Below the pieces are notes generated by a model. The model ran no database searches, was not told where the DNA came from, and worked only from the letters and a program-made list of their open reading frames with translations. Of a stretch of 36,933 nt of DNA, positions 2,358 through 29,529 are shown in pieces; the first letter of the stretch is position 1, and every line of letters starts with the position of its first letter. Both the position numbers and the translations under genes were made by a program. This DNA comes from Clostridiales bacterium. GTDB lineage: Bacteria > Bacillota > Clostridia > Christensenellales > Aristaeellaceae. Location of the stretch: positions 1-36,933 of the forward strand of contig SVHC01000030.1 of the NCBI GenBank assembly GCA_015056055.1, written 5' to 3'.

Positions 2358-2435
2358 ATAAAATAATGAAAGATATGCGCGATTGGACGAATGAATTGCG
2401 CAGCAAAGTGATGATTATTTGAGAGAGGTGTCTGT

Positions 2436-4742
2436 ATGGCAGCTTCCAAACTTTATCAGACGCGTGAATGGGCCGGAAAGTGGATTGGCGCACCGGAAAT
2501 GACAAAGGATGACCGTATGGCTCCGATTTTCCGCAAGCAGTTCAGCGTTGTATATGACATTAAAGCGGCAAAGGTAGCTATCTGCGGTCTGGGTCTGTTT
2601 GAATTGAAGATCAACGGTGTTCCTGCGGATGATACCTATTTGAACCCGGTTAATACATATTATTCTGAAACTTCTCTGTACCGCGAATTTGATGTTACCC
2701 ATCTTGTTCATAAGGGAACCAATGTAATTACGGTCGAGCTGGGCAATGGATTCTTCAATGAATCTGTAGAAGCGTGGATGTGGTCTGTGGCTCCGTGGCG
2801 TGCTGCGCCGAAACTGATGATGGACCTGGAACTGTCTTATTGCGTAGGGAAGACGGAAACGATTTCCACGGATGAAGAGTGGGAAGTCACGCTGGATGGT
2901 CCCATCACGGAAAACAGCATTTATTTCGGCGAAACGCATGATATGCGCCGCCATGAGTGCGATTATCAGTGGAAGAAAGCAGTGTTGGTTAAACCCGTCA
3001 AAGGCACCGTTCGCTGTCAGGATATGGACCCGATTCGCAAAATCGGCGAATTCAAGCCGAAGTCGATTACGCGTCTGGATGATGGTGCATATGTGATCGA
3101 AGCGCCGCAGATGACCACCGGCTGGATGAAGATCAAGCTGTGTGCACCACGCGATACCGACGTTATGATCACTTATGGCGAGAGGCTGCTGGATGACGGA
3201 CATCTTCACAAAATCGGAAATGGTGTTGGTGAAGGCGCTTCCTGGTTCAAGAAGGACTATATTCAGGAAGATCACTACATCAGCGATGGCGAAGAACATG
3301 AATTTGAGCCGAAGTTCAGCTATAAGGGATACAACTATATTCAGGTGGAAAATTATCCCGGCGAACTTACGGAAGATGACATTACGCTTTATCTGATTGC
3401 GAACGACGTTGCGACCGTATCTGAATTCAAGTGCTCGGACGAACTGGTAAACAAGCTTCATGAAATGATGAAGCGTACCATCGTGAACAATCTGCAGGGT
3501 AAGCCCACAGATACGCCGGTATGGGAGAAGAACGGCTGGCTGGGCGATCTGAATGTTGCGCTGCTTTCGTTCCTGTACAACTTCGATATGAGCAATTTCC
3601 TGCCGTGCTTTGTGCGCATGATGGCGGACAGCCAGCACAATTGCGGCATTATCACCCAGATGGTTCCCAGCGTTATCTGGCAGAACCGCAATTCGCCTGT
3701 ATGGAACACGATCTTTGTGTTTGCGGTGGAGGCTCTGTACGACTATTACGGAGATATGGATCTGCTGCGCGATATGTATCCGGATATCAAGACCTTTGCT
3801 TGGAAGGACATTGGCTATCTCGGCAGCCGCGGCTGGTACTGGGATGACGAACTGGAACTCGCCGACTGGGTAGCTCCCATGATGGATGAATTCTGCGAAG
3901 GTGCCAATCCCTTTATGTCCGAGGGCATTGAAATTTGCGGCACGGCATTTGCCTATGGAATGCTTAAATCCGCTGCACGCCTTGCACGTCTTCTGGATAA
4001 GGAGCAGGATGCGGTTGAGTATGAGGCAGCTGCTTCCAAGATTTACACCGTATTCAATGATCGGTACTATAATGCCGAAAAGCAGATTTATGAAACGAAG
4101 TTCTGGGAAGTGATCGGCAACCGTACCAAGTATCGCCAGACTTCCAACCTTGTTCCGCTGTACTTCGGTCTTGTTCCCGAGGATAAGAAGGCAGGGGTTG
4201 TTGCGAACCTCGTAAATGACTTCATTGAGAAGGACTATCATCTGGATACCGGCAGCGCGGGCACGCATCTGGTGCTTCCGTTCCTGTTTGACTACGGTTA
4301 TCCTGAGGTTGCTTACAAAGTTCTTATGCAGACAACCTATCCCAGCTGGGGTTACTGGATTGAGAATGGTTCGACTACCGCATGGGAGTGCTGGGAGCAG
4401 GTAACTCGTTCCAAGAACCACTATTTCCTGGCAACCTACGAGGAAGCGCTGTATTCTCACCTCGTCGGTATTCGTGATATCCGCGACGGCTTCAGCCGCT
4501 TTACAGTAGCACCCGAGGTTACCTGCGGCATGGAATGGGCAGAGGGTAAGATCCAGACGCCCACCGGCATTGCAGCCTGTGCATGGAAGAAGGCTGACGA
4601 TAAGACCATTGTGGACATCGAAATTCCCTTCGGCGCAACGGCTGAAATTCGTCTGCCGGAAGGCGATGCGAAATTTAAGAAGATTGTCTGCGGTGGAAAG
4701 TATCACTTTGAAATCGTTGACGGCAAGGTTATTGAAGGCTGA
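2436..4742 (+). CDS. Alpha-L-rhamnosidase, GH78 family
   Basis: A 768-aa inverting glycosidase that releases terminal alpha-L-rhamnose. There is no signal peptide, so it should act inside the cell on imported rhamnosides. The N-terminal half has the beta-domains of bacterial rhamnosidases, the middle is the (alpha/alpha)6 barrel, and the end is a beta-sandwich. In the barrel, D359, E364 and D371 reproduce the spacing of the catalytic cluster known from Bacillus GH78 RhaB (D567/E572/D579), and E651 in a TTAWECWE context matches the general base (E841). All key acidic residues are therefore present. The start at 2436 has AGAGAGGTG upstream. Own promoter; a terminator lies about 180 nt downstream. 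No rhamnose isomerase, kinase or transporter gene lies beside it. Confidence 0.9.
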   Translation: MAASKLYQTREWAGKWIGAPEMTKDDRMAPIFRKQFSVVYDIKAAKVAICGLGLFELKINGVPADDTYLNPVNTYYSETSLYREFDVTHLVHKGTNVITVELGNGFFNESVEAWMWSVAPWRAAPKLMMDLELSYCVGKTETISTDEEWEVTLDGPITENSIYFGETHDMRRHECDYQWKKAVLVKPVKGTVRCQDMDPIRKIGEFKPKSITRLDDGAYVIEAPQMTTGWMKIKLCAPRDTDVMITYGERLLDDGHLHKIGNGVGEGASWFKKDYIQEDHYISDGEEHEFEPKFSYKGYNYIQVENYPGELTEDDITLYLIANDVATVSEFKCSDELVNKLHEMMKRTIVNNLQGKPTDTPVWEKNGWLGDLNVALLSFLYNFDMSNFLPCFVRMMADSQHNCGIITQMVPSVIWQNRNSPVWNTIFVFAVEALYDYYGDMDLLRDMYPDIKTFAWKDIGYLGSRGWYWDDELELADWVAPMMDEFCEGANPFMSEGIEICGTAFAYGMLKSAARLARLLDKEQDAVEYEAAASKIYTVFNDRYYNAEKQIYETKFWEVIGNRTKYRQTSNLVPLYFGLVPEDKKAGVVANLVNDFIEKDYHLDTGSAGTHLVLPFLFDYGYPEVAYKVLMQTTYPSWGYWIENGSTTAWECWEQVTRSKNHYFLATYEEALYSHLVGIRDIRDGFSRFTVAPEVTCGMEWAEGKIQTPTGIAACAWKKADDKTIVDIEIPFGATAEIRLPEGDAKFKKIVCGGKYHFEIVDGKVIEG

Positions 4743-4924
4743 CGATGTAAATGATGTAAGAAGAATACCGACGAAGTCCTTTCTCCGCACTGGCCTGCAC
4801 TACGTTTGCCCGGTGTTCCGTGGCGGCGCTCGAAGTTTGCCGCCATTCAGCCTTCGGAATCCGTCACCGCAGGTGACGGAGGGGATTCACCTCGCTCGTC
4901 CGCTATTCTTGTCATTTCAAAACG
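4743..4924. repeat. Non-coding stretch with a perfect hairpin, possible intergenic repeat unit
   Basis: This gap holds no convincing gene. It contains CCGTCACC-GCA-GGTGACGG (4861-4879), a perfect 8-bp stem, flanked by GAATC (4857-4861) and GATTC (4884-4888), which can extend it around a bulge. The G+C-rich composition differs from the other intergenic regions here. It resembles short palindromic intergenic repeats of gut Clostridia, but I see only one copy in the window. Confidence 0.35.
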
Positions 4925-6703: not shown

Positions 6704-8974
6704 ATGTTTTCTCAGTACAAAAACAATACTACGGAAGAAATTGCAGTATGTGGAATTCCCTTCAGTGTAAGCAGGGATGAAAAGGGCTTGGTAAAGGCGA
6801 TTGAAGGCGGAAATTGGACCAATGTAAAGATGGCGAACAAGTGCGAAGTGCTGTTTTTCCTTGGTATGGCAAATACGGAATGGTGCTGCAGTGAGTGGTG
6901 GGGTCAGAACGAAGTTATGTTCAACCACGATCAGCGCGTATTTATCGGCGACAAGATGCAGCGCATCTGCGTTGTATATGAAGACAATACGCAGGATACG
7001 GCGGATATCCGATTTGGCGTAAACTGCTGGAACTACGACCTGTTCTGTGAGCCCGGAAAGAAGGAAAACCGCTGCTTCAGAGCGCCTTATGACGAGCCTT
7101 TCCGCAGCGATGCAAATGCACGCAAGTTGCTGGAAGATTCGCTGCACCTGATGCAGAACGATGCTGAGGATTACGAGAAGAATACCAAATGGGTATTTGC
7201 TTTCCGCGTAAATCCGAACAAGACCATTAAATTCATCACTTGGGGCGGAAAGAAAAATAAGGGCGTAAACATTTCTGCAGTTACAGGTCTGAATGCCGGC
7301 GAAGAAATTGATCCCAAATGGCCGATCATGACCAATGCGGACTTCCTGAACAAGAGCTGGTTTAAGGCTGCCGATAAGCTTGCACATCGTCTGTATACCT
7401 ATATGGAGGATATCCCGAATTCCGTTACAATTGACGAAATCGAAGGATTCGACGCTCCGGATATCCGCTTCTACGGCTCCGGTACGGCTGATATTTATAC
7501 CAACGTATACCGATATAACCTTATGGATATGGCCTATGAGAAGGTAACGGCAGACGGTATGCCGCATACCTCCTCGGAGCACACCTATGACTTTGGCTGC
7601 TATGGTGGTATGGGTACTTATACAGCGGCGGAAGACTATTTCCCGCATGTATGGATTCGCGACAACGGTCGTTCGCTGACGGAGGTTGTAAACTTCGGCT
7701 ACGAAGAACGTCCGATTCTCGCTGCGGATAAGCTGTTTGAAATGCTTAAGCCGTCGATCACCATTTCCATTCCGCACTGGTCTCGTATTGCAAACCTGCC
7801 GCCGGATGAGGACAACCCGGGTATTGACCGCGACCGCATGGAAAATGACGGCCACGGAGCGATTATGCTTTTCATGTACTCTCTGTACAACAAGGGCGTT
7901 GTAGGCAAGGAGTGGGTGAAGGAGAAGGCTGCAAAGCTCAAGGAAGCGGCCGACTTTATCTTCTGGCAGATTGAAAATCCTGTTGAATCCGGATTTGACA
8001 AGGTGCTGTTCACATATTCCGAAAGCTCCGATCAGGCATACGGAAGCTTTGACCTGTTCTCCAATGCTACGGTTGTTGCAGCCATGGAAGGCTTTGCACG
8101 CATGTTTGCAGATATCGGCGATGTGGAATATGCGCAGAAGCTGGCAGATGCCTCAAAGCTGCTTCGCGATGGCATTGATCAGGTATTTATGATGGACCAT
8201 CCGCGCTACGGAAATGTATATACCGATACCACCACCGATTGCTGGACGCATGAATATAAGCGCTTCTGTGAGGCTCTTATGGAGGGCGATATTCACGGCT
8301 ACGATATGGCAACCGATCGTCCTGACCGTTATGAGATTCTCAGCCGTACCTTCCGGGCACAGAAAGAACTGTCCTATTATCCCTTTGCAGGTCGTCAGAT
8401 GGGATATGGTCAGGGATATCTTACCGTTGCTGCCATCACGCTGGATATGTTTGATGAGCTTACTGAATGCATGGATGCAATCGCCTGCGAAAGCTATCAT
8501 CCGTATGATCGCCTGAATTACATCATTCCCGAGGGTATTGTAAGACACGGCAGTGGCAAGTTCTGGTTCCGTCAGAGTGACCTTGGCAATGCTGTTCAGC
8601 AGGCTGAACCCATCAAGTGCGCACGACTCTTGGTTGGTATCGATGATATTACCGTATCCCGTGGTCTGCGTTTGATTCCCAGACTGCCCAACACCTGGAC
8701 GAAGCTTGAGGCAAAGAACTACACTGTAAACACGGCAGATGGCAGGAAGAAGTTTGATTTCACCTATCAGCGCGCAACGAAGGACGATGCTTCCTATGAT
8801 GTATATGCGCAGGCAGATGGAAAGGCATATGGTGCAACCTTCTCCAAGAGTGTGCCTGTAACGTATCTGCGAGTTGGCCCCTTTGATTCTGAGAATATCA
8901 CCGTACGCGGAGGTATTGTAAATCGCGTCGTGAAGCTGCAGAATCGTTGGTTTGCTATGGTGACGCCCTGTTAA
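6704..8974 (+). CDS. Putative (alpha/alpha)6-barrel glycosidase, family not recognised
   Basis: A 756-aa cytoplasmic protein without signal peptide or membrane segment. I cannot assign a named family. The first 300 residues look beta-rich, with many aromatics (WCCSEWWG near 65). The central region looks like a six-hairpin glycosidase barrel: an aromatic-rich WIRDNGR segment at 317-323, EERP soon after, and E380-N381-D382-G383-H384-G385, a motif style found at the active site of GH63/GH15-like and debranching-type barrels. The C-terminal 100 residues look like a beta-sandwich. D320 and E380/D382 are reasonable catalytic candidates by inference. Strong RBS (GGGGG) and own promoter; a terminator follows. 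Carbohydrate-active function is likely, the substrate unknown. Confidence 0.75.
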   Translation: MFSQYKNNTTEEIAVCGIPFSVSRDEKGLVKAIEGGNWTNVKMANKCEVLFFLGMANTEWCCSEWWGQNEVMFNHDQRVFIGDKMQRICVVYEDNTQDTADIRFGVNCWNYDLFCEPGKKENRCFRAPYDEPFRSDANARKLLEDSLHLMQNDAEDYEKNTKWVFAFRVNPNKTIKFITWGGKKNKGVNISAVTGLNAGEEIDPKWPIMTNADFLNKSWFKAADKLAHRLYTYMEDIPNSVTIDEIEGFDAPDIRFYGSGTADIYTNVYRYNLMDMAYEKVTADGMPHTSSEHTYDFGCYGGMGTYTAAEDYFPHVWIRDNGRSLTEVVNFGYEERPILAADKLFEMLKPSITISIPHWSRIANLPPDEDNPGIDRDRMENDGHGAIMLFMYSLYNKGVVGKEWVKEKAAKLKEAADFIFWQIENPVESGFDKVLFTYSESSDQAYGSFDLFSNATVVAAMEGFARMFADIGDVEYAQKLADASKLLRDGIDQVFMMDHPRYGNVYTDTTTDCWTHEYKRFCEALMEGDIHGYDMATDRPDRYEILSRTFRAQKELSYYPFAGRQMGYGQGYLTVAAITLDMFDELTECMDAIACESYHPYDRLNYIIPEGIVRHGSGKFWFRQSDLGNAVQQAEPIKCARLLVGIDDITVSRGLRLIPRLPNTWTKLEAKNYTVNTADGRKKFDFTYQRATKDDASYDVYAQADGKAYGATFSKSVPVTYLRVGPFDSENITVRGGIVNRVVKLQNRWFAMVTPC

Positions 8975-24385: not shown

Positions 24386-24847
24386 CTATAATACCGTTTT
24401 CAACTCGATAATCCGCTGATTTTTGGAACCACGGAAGCGAAGATTCAGCGAGCGCTCCGCCAGAATGAACGGTCCGTCCACCAGAACATCACATTCTTTA
24501 AGCAGCTGCTTTTTTTCCGGGATTTCCATCAGACGTTCCAGCGTATAGCCGCTGTAGGCCCATACGTTCAGACCACGCTCGCGGGCGGCTTTGGCAAGAA
24601 TCATACAGCCTTCGCACTGTTCAAAAGGTTCGCCGCCGGAAAGAGTGATGCCGTCCAGAAGGGGATTGGAATCCATGCGCTCAATGATATCGGCGGTGTC
24701 CATTTCCTGGCCGCCTGCAAAATCATGAGACTGAGGATTGTGGCATCCGGGACAATGGTGCGGACATCCCTGAACAAATATGGTCATTCGGATACCGGGT
24801 CCGTCTACTATGGAATCATTTACGATTCCGGCAATCCGCATTTTCAT
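24386..24847 (-). CDS. nrdG: Anaerobic ribonucleotide reductase activating protein
   Basis: A 153-aa radical-SAM activase that generates the glycyl radical on NrdD. The cluster ligands C28, C32 and C35 form CX3CX2C, the NrdG-specific spacing, and SGGEPFEQ (70-77) is the SAM-binding GGE region. Length is typical. Its ATG overlaps the nrdD stop by 4 nt, which gives coupled translation and the expected stoichiometric pairing. Confidence 0.95.
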   Translation of the reverse strand: MKMRIAGIVNDSIVDGPGIRMTIFVQGCPHHCPGCHNPQSHDFAGGQEMDTADIIERMDSNPLLDGITLSGGEPFEQCEGCMILAKAARERGLNVWAYSGYTLERLMEIPEKKQLLKECDVLVDGPFILAERSLNLRFRGSKNQRIIELKTVL

Positions 24848-27165
24848 ACGTTATGCTTTACACGGTCGTGTTCTTCAGCGCGCTTGGCGTCGTTGAAACG
24901 ATTCAGCGTGCCTACGAGATAACCGGTAATGCGGCGGATGCGTTCGAAGGGTACATCATCTTCTGTACGGCCGCAGTTCGGGCACTCATCACCAATAATA
25001 CCGTTGTAACCGCACAGCGGGTCGCGGTCAACAGGATGATTGATGGAACCATAACCGATGCCGCACTGCTTCATATGGCGCAGAATCTTTTCAAATGCCT
25101 CGAGGTTTTCGGTCGGATCGCCGTCCAGCTCGACATAGGAGATGTGACCTGCGTTTGTAAGTGCATGATACGGTGCTTCCAGACGGATTTTGTCGAATGC
25201 GCTGGTAGAGTAGTATACCGGCACATGGAAGCTGTTGGTATAATAGTCGCGGTCGGTAACACCTTCGATTACGCCGTACTTTTCACGGTCCATGCGTACG
25301 AAGCGGCCGGAAAGGCCTTCCGCAGGAGTTGCAAGCAGCGTGTAGTTGAGCTGCGTGCGAGCGCTTGCTTCGTCGCAGCGGGAGCGCATGTGCGTAATAA
25401 TTTCAAGACCGAGGTTCTGTGCCTGCTCGCTTTCACCGTGATGCACGCCGATAAGGCACTTCAGAGCTTCTGCCAGACCGATAAAGCCGATGGAGAGAGT
25501 TCCGTGCTTAAGAACTTCACGGACTTCGTCATTCCAGCCCAACTTTTCGCTGTCGATCCATACGCCCTGTCCCATCAGGAAGGGATAGTTATATACATGC
25601 TTGCTGGCCTGAACTTCAAAGCGTTCGTGCAGCTGATCAATCGTCAGGTCGATCATGCGGTCGAGCTCATTGAAGAACTGCTCAATATTGCGGTTTGCCT
25701 TGATTGCGATGCGCGGCAGGTTAATGGAGGTAAAACTCAGATTGCCGCGGCCGTTGGAGATTTCGCGGCTCTTATCATGAATATTGCCGATAACGCGCGT
25801 GCGGCAGCCCATATATGCGATTTCGGTTTCCGGGCAGCCTTCTTTATAGTATTGCATGTTGAAGGGGGCATCCTGGAACGAGAAGTTCGGGAACAGGCGC
25901 TTAGCAGATACGCGGATTGCCAGCTTAAACAGATCATAGTTCGGATCGCCGGGATTGAAGTTGATGCCTTCTTTTACGCGGAAAATCTGAATGGGGAAAA
26001 TCGGCGTTTCATTATTGCCGAGACCGTGCTCCGTTGCGAGCAGCAGGTTGCGTACTGCCAGGCGTCCTTCAGGGGAAATATCCATACCGTAGTTCAGAGA
26101 GGAGAAGGGAACCTGTGCGCCGGCGCGGGAATTCATGGTGTTCAGATTGTGAACGAGAGCTTCCATGGCCTGATAGGTGGCACGATCGGTTTCCTCGGAG
26201 GCCTTTTTATGTGCGAAAGCCTGCACGCGTGCAATAGCATCTTCTGCAACGCCCAACTCCAACAGCTTAGCCTTTTCCCAGGCAACGAATTCGTCGTTCT
26301 GCTCAAGGGAAGGACGGGGCATCTCCGGAGTAAGTACATCAAGCGAAAGGTATGCATCAATCTGCGGACGCGGGTTTTCCATGTCGCACAGAAGTTCCAG
26401 AGCGCGCACGATATTGTCGCGGTAGCGCTTGATAAAGGTCTTGGCAACGCCTTCGGCCATGGAGTAGTCGAAGTTTACGATGCTCTGTCCGCCGTGCTGG
26501 TCATTCTGGTTTGCCTGAATTGCAATACAGGCAAGCGCGGAATAGCTGCTGATATCGCGCGGTTCACGCAGATAGCCGTGACCGGTGGAGAAACCGTTGC
26601 GGAACAGGCTCAACAGATCAATCTGGCAGCAGGTAGTGGTGAGGGTGAGGAAGTCCATATCATGAATATGGAAATCACCTTCGGCATGTGCTTGAGCATG
26701 CTCGGGCTTAATGACGCGCATAAGGTTGAACTGCTTTGCGCCTTCAGAGCCGTATTTGAGCATAGCGCCCATTGCGGTATCACCGTTGATATTGGCGTTT
26801 TCGCGCTTTAGATCAGAATTCACGGCAGCGTTGAACGTGATGTCCTCATAAATCTGCATGAGACGCGTGTTGATTTCGCGTACGCGGCTACGCTCTGCAC
26901 GATAGAGGATATAGCTCTTCGCAGTGCGAACAAAACCGTTGTCGATCAGAACCTTTTCAACCATGTCCTGAATCTGTTCAACAGAGGGGGTTTCGATGGC
27001 TTCGCTTCGTTCGAGTGCTTCGATGACCTGACGCGTCAGCTTTTCGGCGGATTTTTCGCTTTTGGCGCTTCCGCTGGCCTGAAATGCCTTCATGATAGCC
27101 TGCGTAATTTTCGCCTCGTCAAAGGGAAGTTCACGTCCGTCGCGCTTGATGATCGTATCAATCAT
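24844..27165 (-). CDS. nrdD: Anaerobic (class III) ribonucleoside-triphosphate reductase
   Basis: A 773-aa enzyme that reduces ribonucleoside triphosphates to deoxynucleotides without oxygen. An ATP-cone regulatory domain occupies about 2-95 (IIKRDGRELPFDEAKI). The catalytic ten-stranded barrel follows, with TTCCQIDLL near 190. C718 and C728-x2-C731 are near the C-terminal zinc site, and the glycyl-radical loop RITGYL (745-750) has radical Gly748. RBS GGAGGT. The gene starts a transcript with nrdG and is preceded by a leader of about 180 nt and a promoter overlapped by an NrdR-like box. It implies an anaerobic lifestyle. Confidence 0.96.
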   Translation of the reverse strand: MIDTIIKRDGRELPFDEAKITQAIMKAFQASGSAKSEKSAEKLTRQVIEALERSEAIETPSVEQIQDMVEKVLIDNGFVRTAKSYILYRAERSRVREINTRLMQIYEDITFNAAVNSDLKRENANINGDTAMGAMLKYGSEGAKQFNLMRVIKPEHAQAHAEGDFHIHDMDFLTLTTTCCQIDLLSLFRNGFSTGHGYLREPRDISSYSALACIAIQANQNDQHGGQSIVNFDYSMAEGVAKTFIKRYRDNIVRALELLCDMENPRPQIDAYLSLDVLTPEMPRPSLEQNDEFVAWEKAKLLELGVAEDAIARVQAFAHKKASEETDRATYQAMEALVHNLNTMNSRAGAQVPFSSLNYGMDISPEGRLAVRNLLLATEHGLGNNETPIFPIQIFRVKEGINFNPGDPNYDLFKLAIRVSAKRLFPNFSFQDAPFNMQYYKEGCPETEIAYMGCRTRVIGNIHDKSREISNGRGNLSFTSINLPRIAIKANRNIEQFFNELDRMIDLTIDQLHERFEVQASKHVYNYPFLMGQGVWIDSEKLGWNDEVREVLKHGTLSIGFIGLAEALKCLIGVHHGESEQAQNLGLEIITHMRSRCDEASARTQLNYTLLATPAEGLSGRFVRMDREKYGVIEGVTDRDYYTNSFHVPVYYSTSAFDKIRLEAPYHALTNAGHISYVELDGDPTENLEAFEKILRHMKQCGIGYGSINHPVDRDPLCGYNGIIGDECPNCGRTEDDVPFERIRRITGYLVGTLNRFNDAKRAEEHDRVKHNV

Positions 27166-27297: not shown

Positions 27298-27341
27298 GCG
27301 GGCAAAATCACAGCGATGCCCTTTGGCATCGCTTTGCCCGC
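27298..27341 (-). other. Long hairpin at the 5' end of the nrdD leader
   Basis: Two perfectly paired segments, GCGGGCAAA/TTTGCCCGC (9 bp) and GCGATGCC/GGCATCGC (8 bp), stack into a 17-bp stem with a one-sided 6-nt bulge and a 4-nt loop. It begins only about 5 nt after the predicted transcription start, and is not followed by a T-run, so a 5' stabilising or regulatory element is more likely than a terminator. I see no known riboswitch core in the leader. Confidence 0.55.
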
Positions 27342-27397: not shown

Positions 27398-27571
27398 TTG
27401 TAGGATTTAAAAATGTGTTCGAATGTAATTGAATCGTCATATATTAAGCGAAAAATTGGTTGTCATTATTGAATAATCTTCGAGGATATACAAGGGATTA
27501 ACTTGTCCGCGATAGAACATCGGATTCGAATTTAATAAAATGTAATAGAATTCAAATTTGGAGGCGCGCAA

Positions 27572-29488
27572 ATGCATAATGGCAGAGCGATAATTCTTAC
27601 ACAGACGCGTGACGGCGTTCATATGAATGCATCCTGTGGCCGAATCTCGACCACGCAGGGAAGCGCGATTGAAATATTTGAAACAAATAAGGGTATTGAA
27701 GCGGATGAACGCCTGATTAAAAAAGTGGCTCAGTCCGGTCATATGGCTGCACTTGAGCACCACAGTCTGTCCGTTGCCTTTGATGGGGCATCGGTTTTTG
27801 TGGAACAGTTCATTATTGAACACAGACTGGCTTCCTATACGGTAAAGTCGCGCAGATATGTGGATTTCTCCGGCGCAGGCTATATCATCCCTGAAGATGC
27901 CCCTGATGGCTATCGTGAGCATATGGAATCTTTCTTTGCGGATTATGAAGCACTTCTTGCACTGGACATTCCGAAGGAAGATGCCCGCTTTGTTTTGCCG
28001 TATGCTTTCCGTGGTCAGTTTTACATGACGGCAAATGTTCGTACTTTTATCCATCTTGCTGCAGAAATGACGCGTGGTCGCGGAAAGGCATGGCCTGAAA
28101 TTGTGCATCTTGGAAATATGCTCAAGGAACAGCTGGATGCGCAATATCCGGGATTGGTTGATCGCGAGCGCGTGGATGCCGCAATTCCCGCACGTCCGGC
28201 AGCATTCCATTCTCCGAGCGAAGTGAAGGGAAAAGCAGTGCTGCTTGATACGCCTTTCAATCCGGAAGAAATTCTGAAGCGCGCCTGTGCCTGCTCTGGA
28301 AGAGATATGGGAATCCGTGAGCTTGTGAAGGATGCACGTCCGCGTGAACTGGAAATGCTGAATTACAGCTTTTCCTTCGATAATATTTCCATCGCAAGCC
28401 TTACGCACCTTACGCGTCACAGGATTCTTTCATTGATTGTGAAGGATGCAGCGCATGCGGTTGCAGGCGGAAAATATATTGTGCCGGAGAGCGTGCGCAA
28501 ATCGTCCGAAGCGCTTGCGATTTATCGCGCAAGCTTTGAACGTGCCTGCGGCTATGCTGCGCAGCACCCTGAGATTGCACACTATTGCGCGCTTGCAGGA
28601 AACACTGTGGACGCGCTGGTTTCCATGAACGCACGCGAAATTCTGCATTTTATGAAGCTGCGTACCTGTGTACGTGCGCAGTGGGAAATCCGTACACTGG
28701 CAAATGAGCTTCTTGAACAGCTGCGCACCCACGCTCCTGCGATTTTTTCTGTGTTTGGAGCAACCTGTCGCGTAAATGGCCGTTGTCCTGAGGGAAGGCT
28801 TTCCTGCGGAAATCCCTATAAGCCGCGCATTGGTCTTACTGCAAACCGCAATAATGACGGAGAAGAATATTTCCCCGCTGCTTATGTAGACTCCATTGAA
28901 CGCGCAGGCGGAGAGGTTGTCAAAATACCGTTTACTACGCCGGTTGAAGCGTTGCGCGCTCTGGTCAATGGATTGGACGGCGTCCTGTTTTCCGGTGGAC
29001 CGGATATTGCGCCGTGGCGATTTGGTCAGGAACTGCATCCGAAATCTGTGGTACATGAACTGCGCGACAATATGGAACTTGCGCTGTTTGATTTGGCATT
29101 TGCAAGAAAACTACCGATTCTTGGAATCTGTAGAGGACACCAGGTTATAAATGTGGCTCTTGGCGGTACGCTTTGTCAGGATATTCCGGATAGATATGAT
29201 CTTTCCCACGCGGGCGGCGTACTGCATGAAGTAAAGCTGGAAGAAGGATCAAGGCTTGCAAAGCTCTTTGGGGTCGATGCGGTGAACGTCAACAGCTATC
29301 ATCATCAGTGTGTGGATGTTGTTGCTCCGTATCTTCGCGTCGCGGGCATGTGCGGCCCGGTAAATGAAGCGCTGGAATGGGATGGGGATGACCGTTGGAT
29401 TTTCGGTGTGGAATGGCATCCGGAACGCATGAGTGACGATCCGTTTGCTGCACGCCTGTTTGCGGATTTCGTTCGCGCCTGTAAATAA
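27572..29488 (+). CDS. thyX: Two-repeat ThyX thymidylate synthase fused to a peptidase C26 (gamma-glutamyl hydrolase-type) domain
   Basis: A 638-aa three-part protein in one uninterrupted frame. Repeat 1 (about 1-200) resembles flavin-dependent thymidylate synthase: GHMAALEHH (56-64), then E83-H84-R85 with S93-R-R-Y96, matching the ThyX HRx7S core, with the first Arg of RHR replaced by Glu. Repeat 2 (about 225-405) has R282-H-R284 but Asp292 in place of the motif Ser, and keeps N353-A-R, L363-R and A369-QWEIR. ThyX makes dTMP from dUMP with methylene-tetrahydrofolate and FAD. Residues 417-638 are a class I glutamine-amidotransferase-like peptidase C26 domain with FSGGPD (473-478), nucleophile C520 in GICRG, H616 and E618. 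GGAG precedes the ATG. Divergent from nrdD, so both dNTP routes sit together. A terminator follows. Confidence 0.88.
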   Translation: MHNGRAIILTQTRDGVHMNASCGRISTTQGSAIEIFETNKGIEADERLIKKVAQSGHMAALEHHSLSVAFDGASVFVEQFIIEHRLASYTVKSRRYVDFSGAGYIIPEDAPDGYREHMESFFADYEALLALDIPKEDARFVLPYAFRGQFYMTANVRTFIHLAAEMTRGRGKAWPEIVHLGNMLKEQLDAQYPGLVDRERVDAAIPARPAAFHSPSEVKGKAVLLDTPFNPEEILKRACACSGRDMGIRELVKDARPRELEMLNYSFSFDNISIASLTHLTRHRILSLIVKDAAHAVAGGKYIVPESVRKSSEALAIYRASFERACGYAAQHPEIAHYCALAGNTVDALVSMNAREILHFMKLRTCVRAQWEIRTLANELLEQLRTHAPAIFSVFGATCRVNGRCPEGRLSCGNPYKPRIGLTANRNNDGEEYFPAAYVDSIERAGGEVVKIPFTTPVEALRALVNGLDGVLFSGGPDIAPWRFGQELHPKSVVHELRDNMELALFDLAFARKLPILGICRGHQVINVALGGTLCQDIPDRYDLSHAGGVLHEVKLEEGSRLAKLFGVDAVNVNSYHHQCVDVVAPYLRVAGMCGPVNEALEWDGDDRWIFGVEWHPERMSDDPFAARLFADFVRACK

Positions 29489-29491
29489 TGG

Positions 29492-29529
29492 AAACTGTCC
29501 GTGCTGATCAAATGCGCGGACAGTTTTTT
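29492..29529 (+). terminator. Rho-independent terminator after the thyX fusion
   Basis: AAACTGTCCG (29492-29501) pairs with CGGACAGTTT (29517-29526), followed by more T (to 29529). It begins 4 nt past the stop codon. Confidence 0.9.

Follow-up and report, generated by a model that had tools for sequence, protein, structure and literature searches.

A tandem ThyX with an apparently divided active site, fused to a gamma-glutamyl hydrolase-like domain in a Clostridiales bacterium

Known ThyX enzymes (PF02511, TIGR02170; TM0449, PDB 1kq4) are homotetramers with four identical active sites, and each chain carries all the residues required. According to the accessible text of PMC6514825, a site is assembled from three subunits: the RHR motif and Mtb R199 lie on subunit A, S71 and R190 on subunit B, and R87, S105, R107 and the lid residue Y108 on subunit C. 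Excerpts of two further papers state that H53, on a different monomer, stacks on the flavin and that R78 lies at flavin N1 (PMC11940539), and that T. maritima R174 is the activator of dUMP, S88, R90 and Y91 also being needed (PMC8316439). A ThyX duplication has been reported in Chloroflexi and 'a few other species' and left uncharacterised (Biol Direct 2009, PMC3224940). It is likewise a duplication of the ThyX domain, compared here by its description only, and the accessible part of that paper mentions neither complementary active-site loss nor a C26 partner (PMC3224940). The open-access literature, represented mostly by titles and abstract openings, described no ThyX-C26 fusion, no such gene pair and no split-site ThyX. 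The ThyX of Chlamydia may also be long.

For peptidase C26, the best solved relatives of the domain studied here are Lin1909 (PDB 3fij), 7d4r (a 'probable glutamine amidotransferase', which we take to be SpuA) and PuuD (6vtv). All three are of the same family and share the catalytic triad and the CRG/HPE motifs; the domain studied here differs from them in being attached to ThyX and in scoring below the PuuD equivalog cut-off. Animal folate gamma-glutamyl hydrolase belongs to the same broad superfamily and acts on gamma-glutamyl bonds by the same chemistry.

Here we describe a gene joining these two families, found in a window of 36,933 nucleotides (contig SVHC01000030.1). The thyX-thyX-C26 fusion gene (27572..29488, + strand), recognised as an open reading frame with Pfam matches, begins with ATG and encodes 638 aa. 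On direct reading, a ribosome-binding site GGAGG (27560..27564, +) lies 7 nt ahead of the ATG, and a probable intrinsic terminator (29494..29529, +) is formed by an 8-bp stem ACTGTCCG/CGGACAGT with a 15-nt loop and a T run; our consensus terminator scan accepts loops of 3-8 only, so this one lies outside its list. Since the terminator comes directly after the stop codon, the fusion gene is probably the last of its transcript. Profile and alignment place ThyX domain 1 (D1) at 27605..28150 (+) and ThyX domain 2 (D2) at 28310..28738 (+), followed by the Peptidase C26 / gamma-glutamyl hydrolase-like domain at 28820..29485 (+). Only a few residues separate the latter from ThyX: the ThyX C-terminus CPEGRLSCG, also conserved among unfused relatives, is followed by about 3 residues and then by the C26 start. 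Thy1 (Pfam PF02511) scored 217.4 bits (cut-off 24.8) in two stretches, the best at residues 12-193, TIGR02170 scored 152.7 (cut-off 87.9), and Peptidase_C26 scored 175 bits (cut-off 20.5) over residues 425-618, covering model positions 16-219 of 219. The first-pass annotation had read this frame as two ThyX-like repeats followed by a C26 domain, and this was borne out, all Pfam scores being far above cut-off.

To compare active sites, contigs from 84,980 species (GTDB) were searched with a D1 profile. This gave 301 related stretches, of which the best 80 were analysed; a tandem ThyX frame is found in each of them, full-length in 79 and starting at profile position 65 in the remaining one (L075). 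The same contig collection searched with the whole fusion protein gave no match. Positions are given in T. maritima numbering, which by our own count is 1kq4 chain numbering minus 12. D1 and D2 are homologous to each other (hhalign 97.7%, E 1.7e-12) and to known ThyX. At the position of the flavin-binding R78, D1 has E83 (codon 27818..27820, +), a Glu in 81/81 tandem ThyX, and at that of the dUMP-activating R174 it has M166 (Met in 80/81). D1 keeps S93-R94-R95-Y96 (SxRY; 27848..27859, +), equivalent to T. maritima S88-G89-R90-Y91, with S, R and Y in 81/81, as well as R139 and R157 (T. maritima R147 and R165; 81/81) and H57 at the H53 position, His in all 80 rows with a letter there. Position 59, equivalent to T55, is Ser or Thr in 78/81 and Ala only in the two fused species, with one gap. 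In D2, R282-H283-R284 (28415..28423, +) form the RHR flavin motif in 81/81, R364 is equivalent to R174 (80/81), and N353, R355 and L363 are retained too. R256 and R258 replace H53 and T55 (80/81 each), His is found in 81/81 at the Q75 position (H279), and both SxRY and an Arg at the R147 position are absent from D2 in all 81 tandem ThyX.

Single-domain ThyX controls carried RHR and SxRY in one domain in 20/20 cases (these were drawn from the upper part of the match list, not at random). Neither domain of the fusion protein does so, D1 having SxRY with EHR and D2 having RHR only; pooling D1 and D2 gives both motifs. Likewise, the mappable catalytic residues of T. maritima ThyX (R78, R174, H53, S88, R90, Y91) are all found over D1 and D2 together. 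The two repeats are thus most likely complementary half-enzymes, with an active site whose parts would be spread over two fused domains in all tandem sequences examined (81/81), in contrast to known ThyX where each chain holds the full set. The repeats described in the first-pass annotation stand as two homologous domains and not as two complete ThyX copies, each being without part of the active site.

How such a chain might assemble can be proposed from the described three-subunit site. By spacing and motif, Mtb R199, S71, R190, S105, R107 and Y108 were assigned to T. maritima R174, T55, R165, S88, R90 and Y91; Ser71 and Arg190 were placed at D1 positions 59 and 157 by spacing, and Arg87 was left out of the mapping. 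D2 would then supply the A set, namely the RHR arginine binding the flavin and the arginine activating dUMP. D1 would supply both the B set (a histidine, a serine or threonine and an arginine, all adjacent to flavin and folate) and the C set (the Ser/Arg/Tyr loop over dUMP). With D2 as B, arginines would stand where the flavin needs H53 and T55, so the arrangement with D1 as B fits best. The B set is incomplete in the fused species themselves, the B serine being Ala59 in the window and in the second fused species. A site would be complete only where D2 acts as A and D1 as both B and C, which would hold for two of the four; two fused chains together would most likely form a ThyX pseudo-tetramer in which two sites are live and two are dead. 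In the dead ones, E83 of D1 would lie opposite R256/R258 of D2, in the space that the flavin would otherwise take. The near-invariance of these residues suggests a structural contact replacing the flavin. We infer both this chain arrangement and the dead-site contact for tandem ThyX from the sequences.

The first-pass annotation had left room for a fusion unique to one assembly and produced by a frame error. The source genome is indeed a multi-contig draft (2.83 Mb in 80 contigs, 95% complete, with one ThyX gene), which would favour such an assembly or frame artefact. A second species in a different assembly, Candidatus Alectryocaccomicrobium excrementavium (DVJN01000253.1; G297 among the genomes, L036 among the 80 loci), carries an unbroken 640-aa fusion with 66% identity over residues 1-637; it is the sole other genome of the window's genus available for comparison. 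An unbroken fusion at this identity in a second species reflects neither chance nor a single-assembly frame error, and an artefact is hardly credible. The C26 halves of the two fused species are 62% identical, with the triad intact. Three further candidates, G498 and G420 (matches spanning both domains) and G364 (one shared open-frame length), were rejected, a stop codon lying between the two genes in each. The fusion is so far restricted to one genus.

As unfused neighbours, the two genes are found more widely. A C26 gene lies directly downstream of the tandem thyX, on the same strand, in 17 of the best 80 of 301 loci, and is fused in one (L036); in the 17, the distance from the end of the ThyX frame to the C26 profile start ranges from -16 to +32 bp, and one of these C26 genes (L094) is truncated at a contig end. 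Two of the 80 loci (L037 and L041) are from one genome, that of Pullichristensenella stercorigallinarum (DVFZ contigs), which has two tandem thyX + C26 pairs on separate contigs; G398 looks similar. No second C26 was found elsewhere in the 80 loci. C26 is missing from 62 of the best 80, less than 300 bp of sequence following in L044, L046 and L104; the C26 partner is therefore not required for tandem ThyX function. Near single-domain ThyX of the same order, a C26 gene was found in 0/20 loci with flanks up to about 3 kb. Of the 309 genomes in the family to which the window belongs, 56 carry tandem ThyX, and C26 is beside it or fused to it in at least 23 (2 fused, 21 adjacent), these hand-counted, profile-checked counts being lower bounds that include G201 and G274; of the remaining 33, 28 are members of a single genus (g12) among the matches listed.

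In a tree of 81 tandem ThyX (the 80 and the window), all 19 C26-linked rows fall inside one 46-row group (SH-aLRT 97), and C26 linkage needs 3 state changes against a shuffled mean of 17.3. The 18 usable linked C26 lie on one side of a branch (91/89), opposite 25 unlinked C26, namely the 24 best C26 matches of the same order and the paralogue from the source genome. ThyX and C26 correlate in their pairwise identities (Mantel r 0.936; 0/9999 permutations as high). L094, whose C26 is cut by the contig end, was left out of the C26 tree, the Mantel test and the linked-locus riboswitch scan described below, and L075 and L094 were left out of the alignment lists.

The shared branch and the co-variation indicate that ThyX and C26 have long been together as a pair and became fused in one genus. 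The functional ThyX-C26 link put forward in the first-pass annotation is upheld by the adjacent genes in many relatives, by this co-variation and by the fusion in two species. As to its spread, the fused architecture is confined to one genus, ThyX and C26 being neighbouring genes elsewhere. The first reading thus holds for fusion, triad and functional link, and had overlooked the complementary degeneration of the ThyX repeats. Could the fusion be neutral, adjoining genes having simply lost the intervening stop while the two activities stayed independent? Separate adjacent genes are the commoner arrangement, the fusion is found in one genus only, and in G498, G420 and G364 the two genes share a frame with a single stop between them, so that fusion would be an easy step. 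Gene order has nevertheless been kept over long divergence, ThyX and C26 co-vary, and both halves are intact in both fused species, which makes a neutral fusion rather improbable. The origin that we favour is a gene pair of tandem thyX and C26, conserved over a long time and frequently next to nrdD, with later fusion in one genus; the pair and the fusion are observed, and the succession would link them.

Matches in phages and viruses gave no comparable protein. Of 159 phage or virus records that matched, none reached 80% coverage of the fusion, and the 46 viral ThyX loci showed no end-to-end match to the tandem profile and no C26 gene in their flanks. One separate case is L225 (MT835736.1 12461-19785), a human faecal record labelled 'Bacteriophage sp.' and lacking annotation, which has a tandem ThyX of 39% identity with no C26 nearby. 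By eye, the first half of this frame contains EFR and SRRY and the second half RHR; the record may be bacterial DNA.

We then consider the C26 domain. Residues 520, 616 and 618 of the fusion protein are C, H and E, as the first-pass annotation had named for the triad. C520 (29129..29131, +), in the motif GICRG, is the predicted nucleophile, and H616-P617-E618 (29417..29425, +) contain the predicted remainder of the triad. The Cys, His and Glu, together with the GG, CRG and HHQ motifs, are invariant in 18/18 usable linked C26, and from this conservation the domain is probably an active gamma-glutamyl hydrolase. The same invariance, as expected for an active hydrolase, speaks against a non-catalytic or regulatory module that would sense gamma-glutamyl folate or glutamine and control ThyX; with the general argument that enzyme-sensor domain fusions are common as its support, such a module seems very improbable.

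The kinship of the domain was examined with a profile of the linked C26, which scored 205 bits to Lin1909, 151 to 7d4r and 143 to PuuD. With animal gamma-glutamyl hydrolase (1l9x, 4l7q) it scored 37 bits, below the GMP-synthase amidotransferases; a closer kinship to the animal enzyme than to these other C26 was not found, and there is no sequence case for orthology. The motifs GG-D and HHQ of linked C26 correspond to GS-N and HGQ in 6vtv and 7d4r; unlinked C26 and 3fij resemble the linked ones in this respect, and no highly conserved linked position sharply separates linked from unlinked C26 as a substrate-specifying residue. Against the PuuD equivalog NF008471 (gamma-Glu-GABA hydrolase), the window protein scored 75.7, well short of the cut-off of 266. 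A second, free-standing C26 gene is present in the source genome, on another contig.

The genes around the fusion were also examined. Divergent from it lies nrdD, the anaerobic ribonucleotide reductase (24844..27165, -), with nrdG, the NrdD activase, at 24386..24847 (-), and the three genes together look like a dNTP-synthesis cluster. Among the best 80 of 301, nrdD is present in 11/18 C26-linked loci against 2/62 unlinked tandem loci, flank lengths varying between loci, and folD in 5/80, none of them C26-linked. The ORFs adjoining tandem ThyX without C26 (n=58; one per locus chosen by position, some of them maybe shadow frames, with L044, L046, L104 and L112 left out of the 62) include 7-8 HD/YfbR-type 5'-deoxynucleotidases, 13 GDSL lipases, 5 RecX, one DHFR and one FolD. 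The HD/YfbR-like enzymes would act on deoxynucleoside monophosphates. A 9-bp hairpin (AGCGATGCC..GGCATCGCT) at 27312-27333, between nrdD and thyX, is terminator-like on the minus strand. An NrdR-box-like pattern matched 4 times (mean 1.67; 13/100 shuffles gave as many), about chance level, and defence-system models gave no match. Elsewhere in the window, a 756-aa frame (6704-8974, +) and a 791-aa frame (2415-4790, -) have no Pfam match at 1e-5, the latter overlapping a 768-aa frame on the opposite strand (2436-4742, +).

What would the C26 domain act on? Its most likely substrate, given the lasting partnership with a folate enzyme, would be folate polyglutamate. The domain would shorten the glutamate tail on folate that ThyX uses or releases, and the length of the folate tail, or the release of folate, would then be controlled at the site of dTMP synthesis. 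The source genome encodes FolC, which adds gamma-glutamates to folate (374.8 bits, cut-off 162.65), so polyglutamyl folate should exist in the cell. ThyA, DHFR and HPPK gave no match in this 95%-complete genome, whose missing part may hold genes scored as absent, and the fusion gene is by sequence its only recognisable thymidylate synthase. A methyl-THF:corrinoid methyltransferase gave the sole pterin-binding match. Lacking recognisable DHFR and HPPK, and with a methyltransferase as the sole pterin-binding match, the cell seems dependent on salvaged folate and is probably a folate salvager. In the accessible text of PMC3932018, C. pecorum, which is thyX+ folA- thyA-, must also hold reduced folates. 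Two FolT-like matches were found in the source genome, both below cut-off; since an FMN riboswitch precedes one of them, this gene is more likely a riboflavin transporter. Folate riboswitches were found neither in the window (Rfam gathering scores) nor in 17/18 linked loci, the FolC locus and the two FolT-like loci, where only the FMN riboswitch and two tRNAs were detected. HPPK is present in 2/309 genomes of the window's own family, and de novo folate synthesis is likely lost family-wide. As HPPK is missing almost throughout the family, the distribution of C26 among its members is not accounted for by folate auxotrophy.

A different substrate has to be weighed at this point: with the ThyX part as proposed, C26 could act on gamma-Glu-GABA, a gamma-Glu-polyamine or a gamma-Glu peptide, the link with ThyX being one of shared expression and not of substrate. 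This agrees with the nearest solved relatives, Lin1909, 7d4r-type amidotransferases and PuuD, and with the NCBIfam results, where PuuD is the best C26 model, though below cut-off, for the fusion protein, the paralogue in the same genome and three linked C26 genes. We regard it as somewhat unlikely, given the large distance from the PuuD equivalog cut-off, the persistence of linked C26 beside tandem ThyX over deep divergence on a branch apart from the 25 unlinked C26, and the folD and DHFR genes near tandem ThyX (5/80 loci and 1/58 downstream ORFs), which point to folate metabolism. Among these readings, a folate role for C26 leads, as a plausible candidate. As a whole, we assign a probability of about one half to the explanation that the sole recognisable thymidylate synthase of this organism would be a split-site ThyX fused to an active gamma-glutamyl hydrolase working on the folate tail. 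Its more specific form, a dTMP synthase with a built-in folylpolyglutamate hydrolase, an obligate split-site ThyX and dead pockets turned into conserved Glu-Arg contacts replacing the flavin, is possible and put forward tentatively.

Of the new points, the strongest, resting on residue comparison, is that the two ThyX domains divide the active-site residues between them in complementary fashion. Humans lack ThyX, and excerpts of PMC3498832 describe it as an antibacterial target under study. With catalytic residues coming from distinct, known domains, the three-subunit site could be dissected pocket by pocket, which is impossible with a homotetramer. In a comparative paper on folate (PMC1971073), the accessible text gives no gene for a bacterial gamma-glutamyl hydrolase. 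The C26 partner offers a concrete bacterial candidate for editing the folate tail. If the folate reading is true, the fusion would be the first case known to us of folate tail editing within the enzyme that uses that folate.
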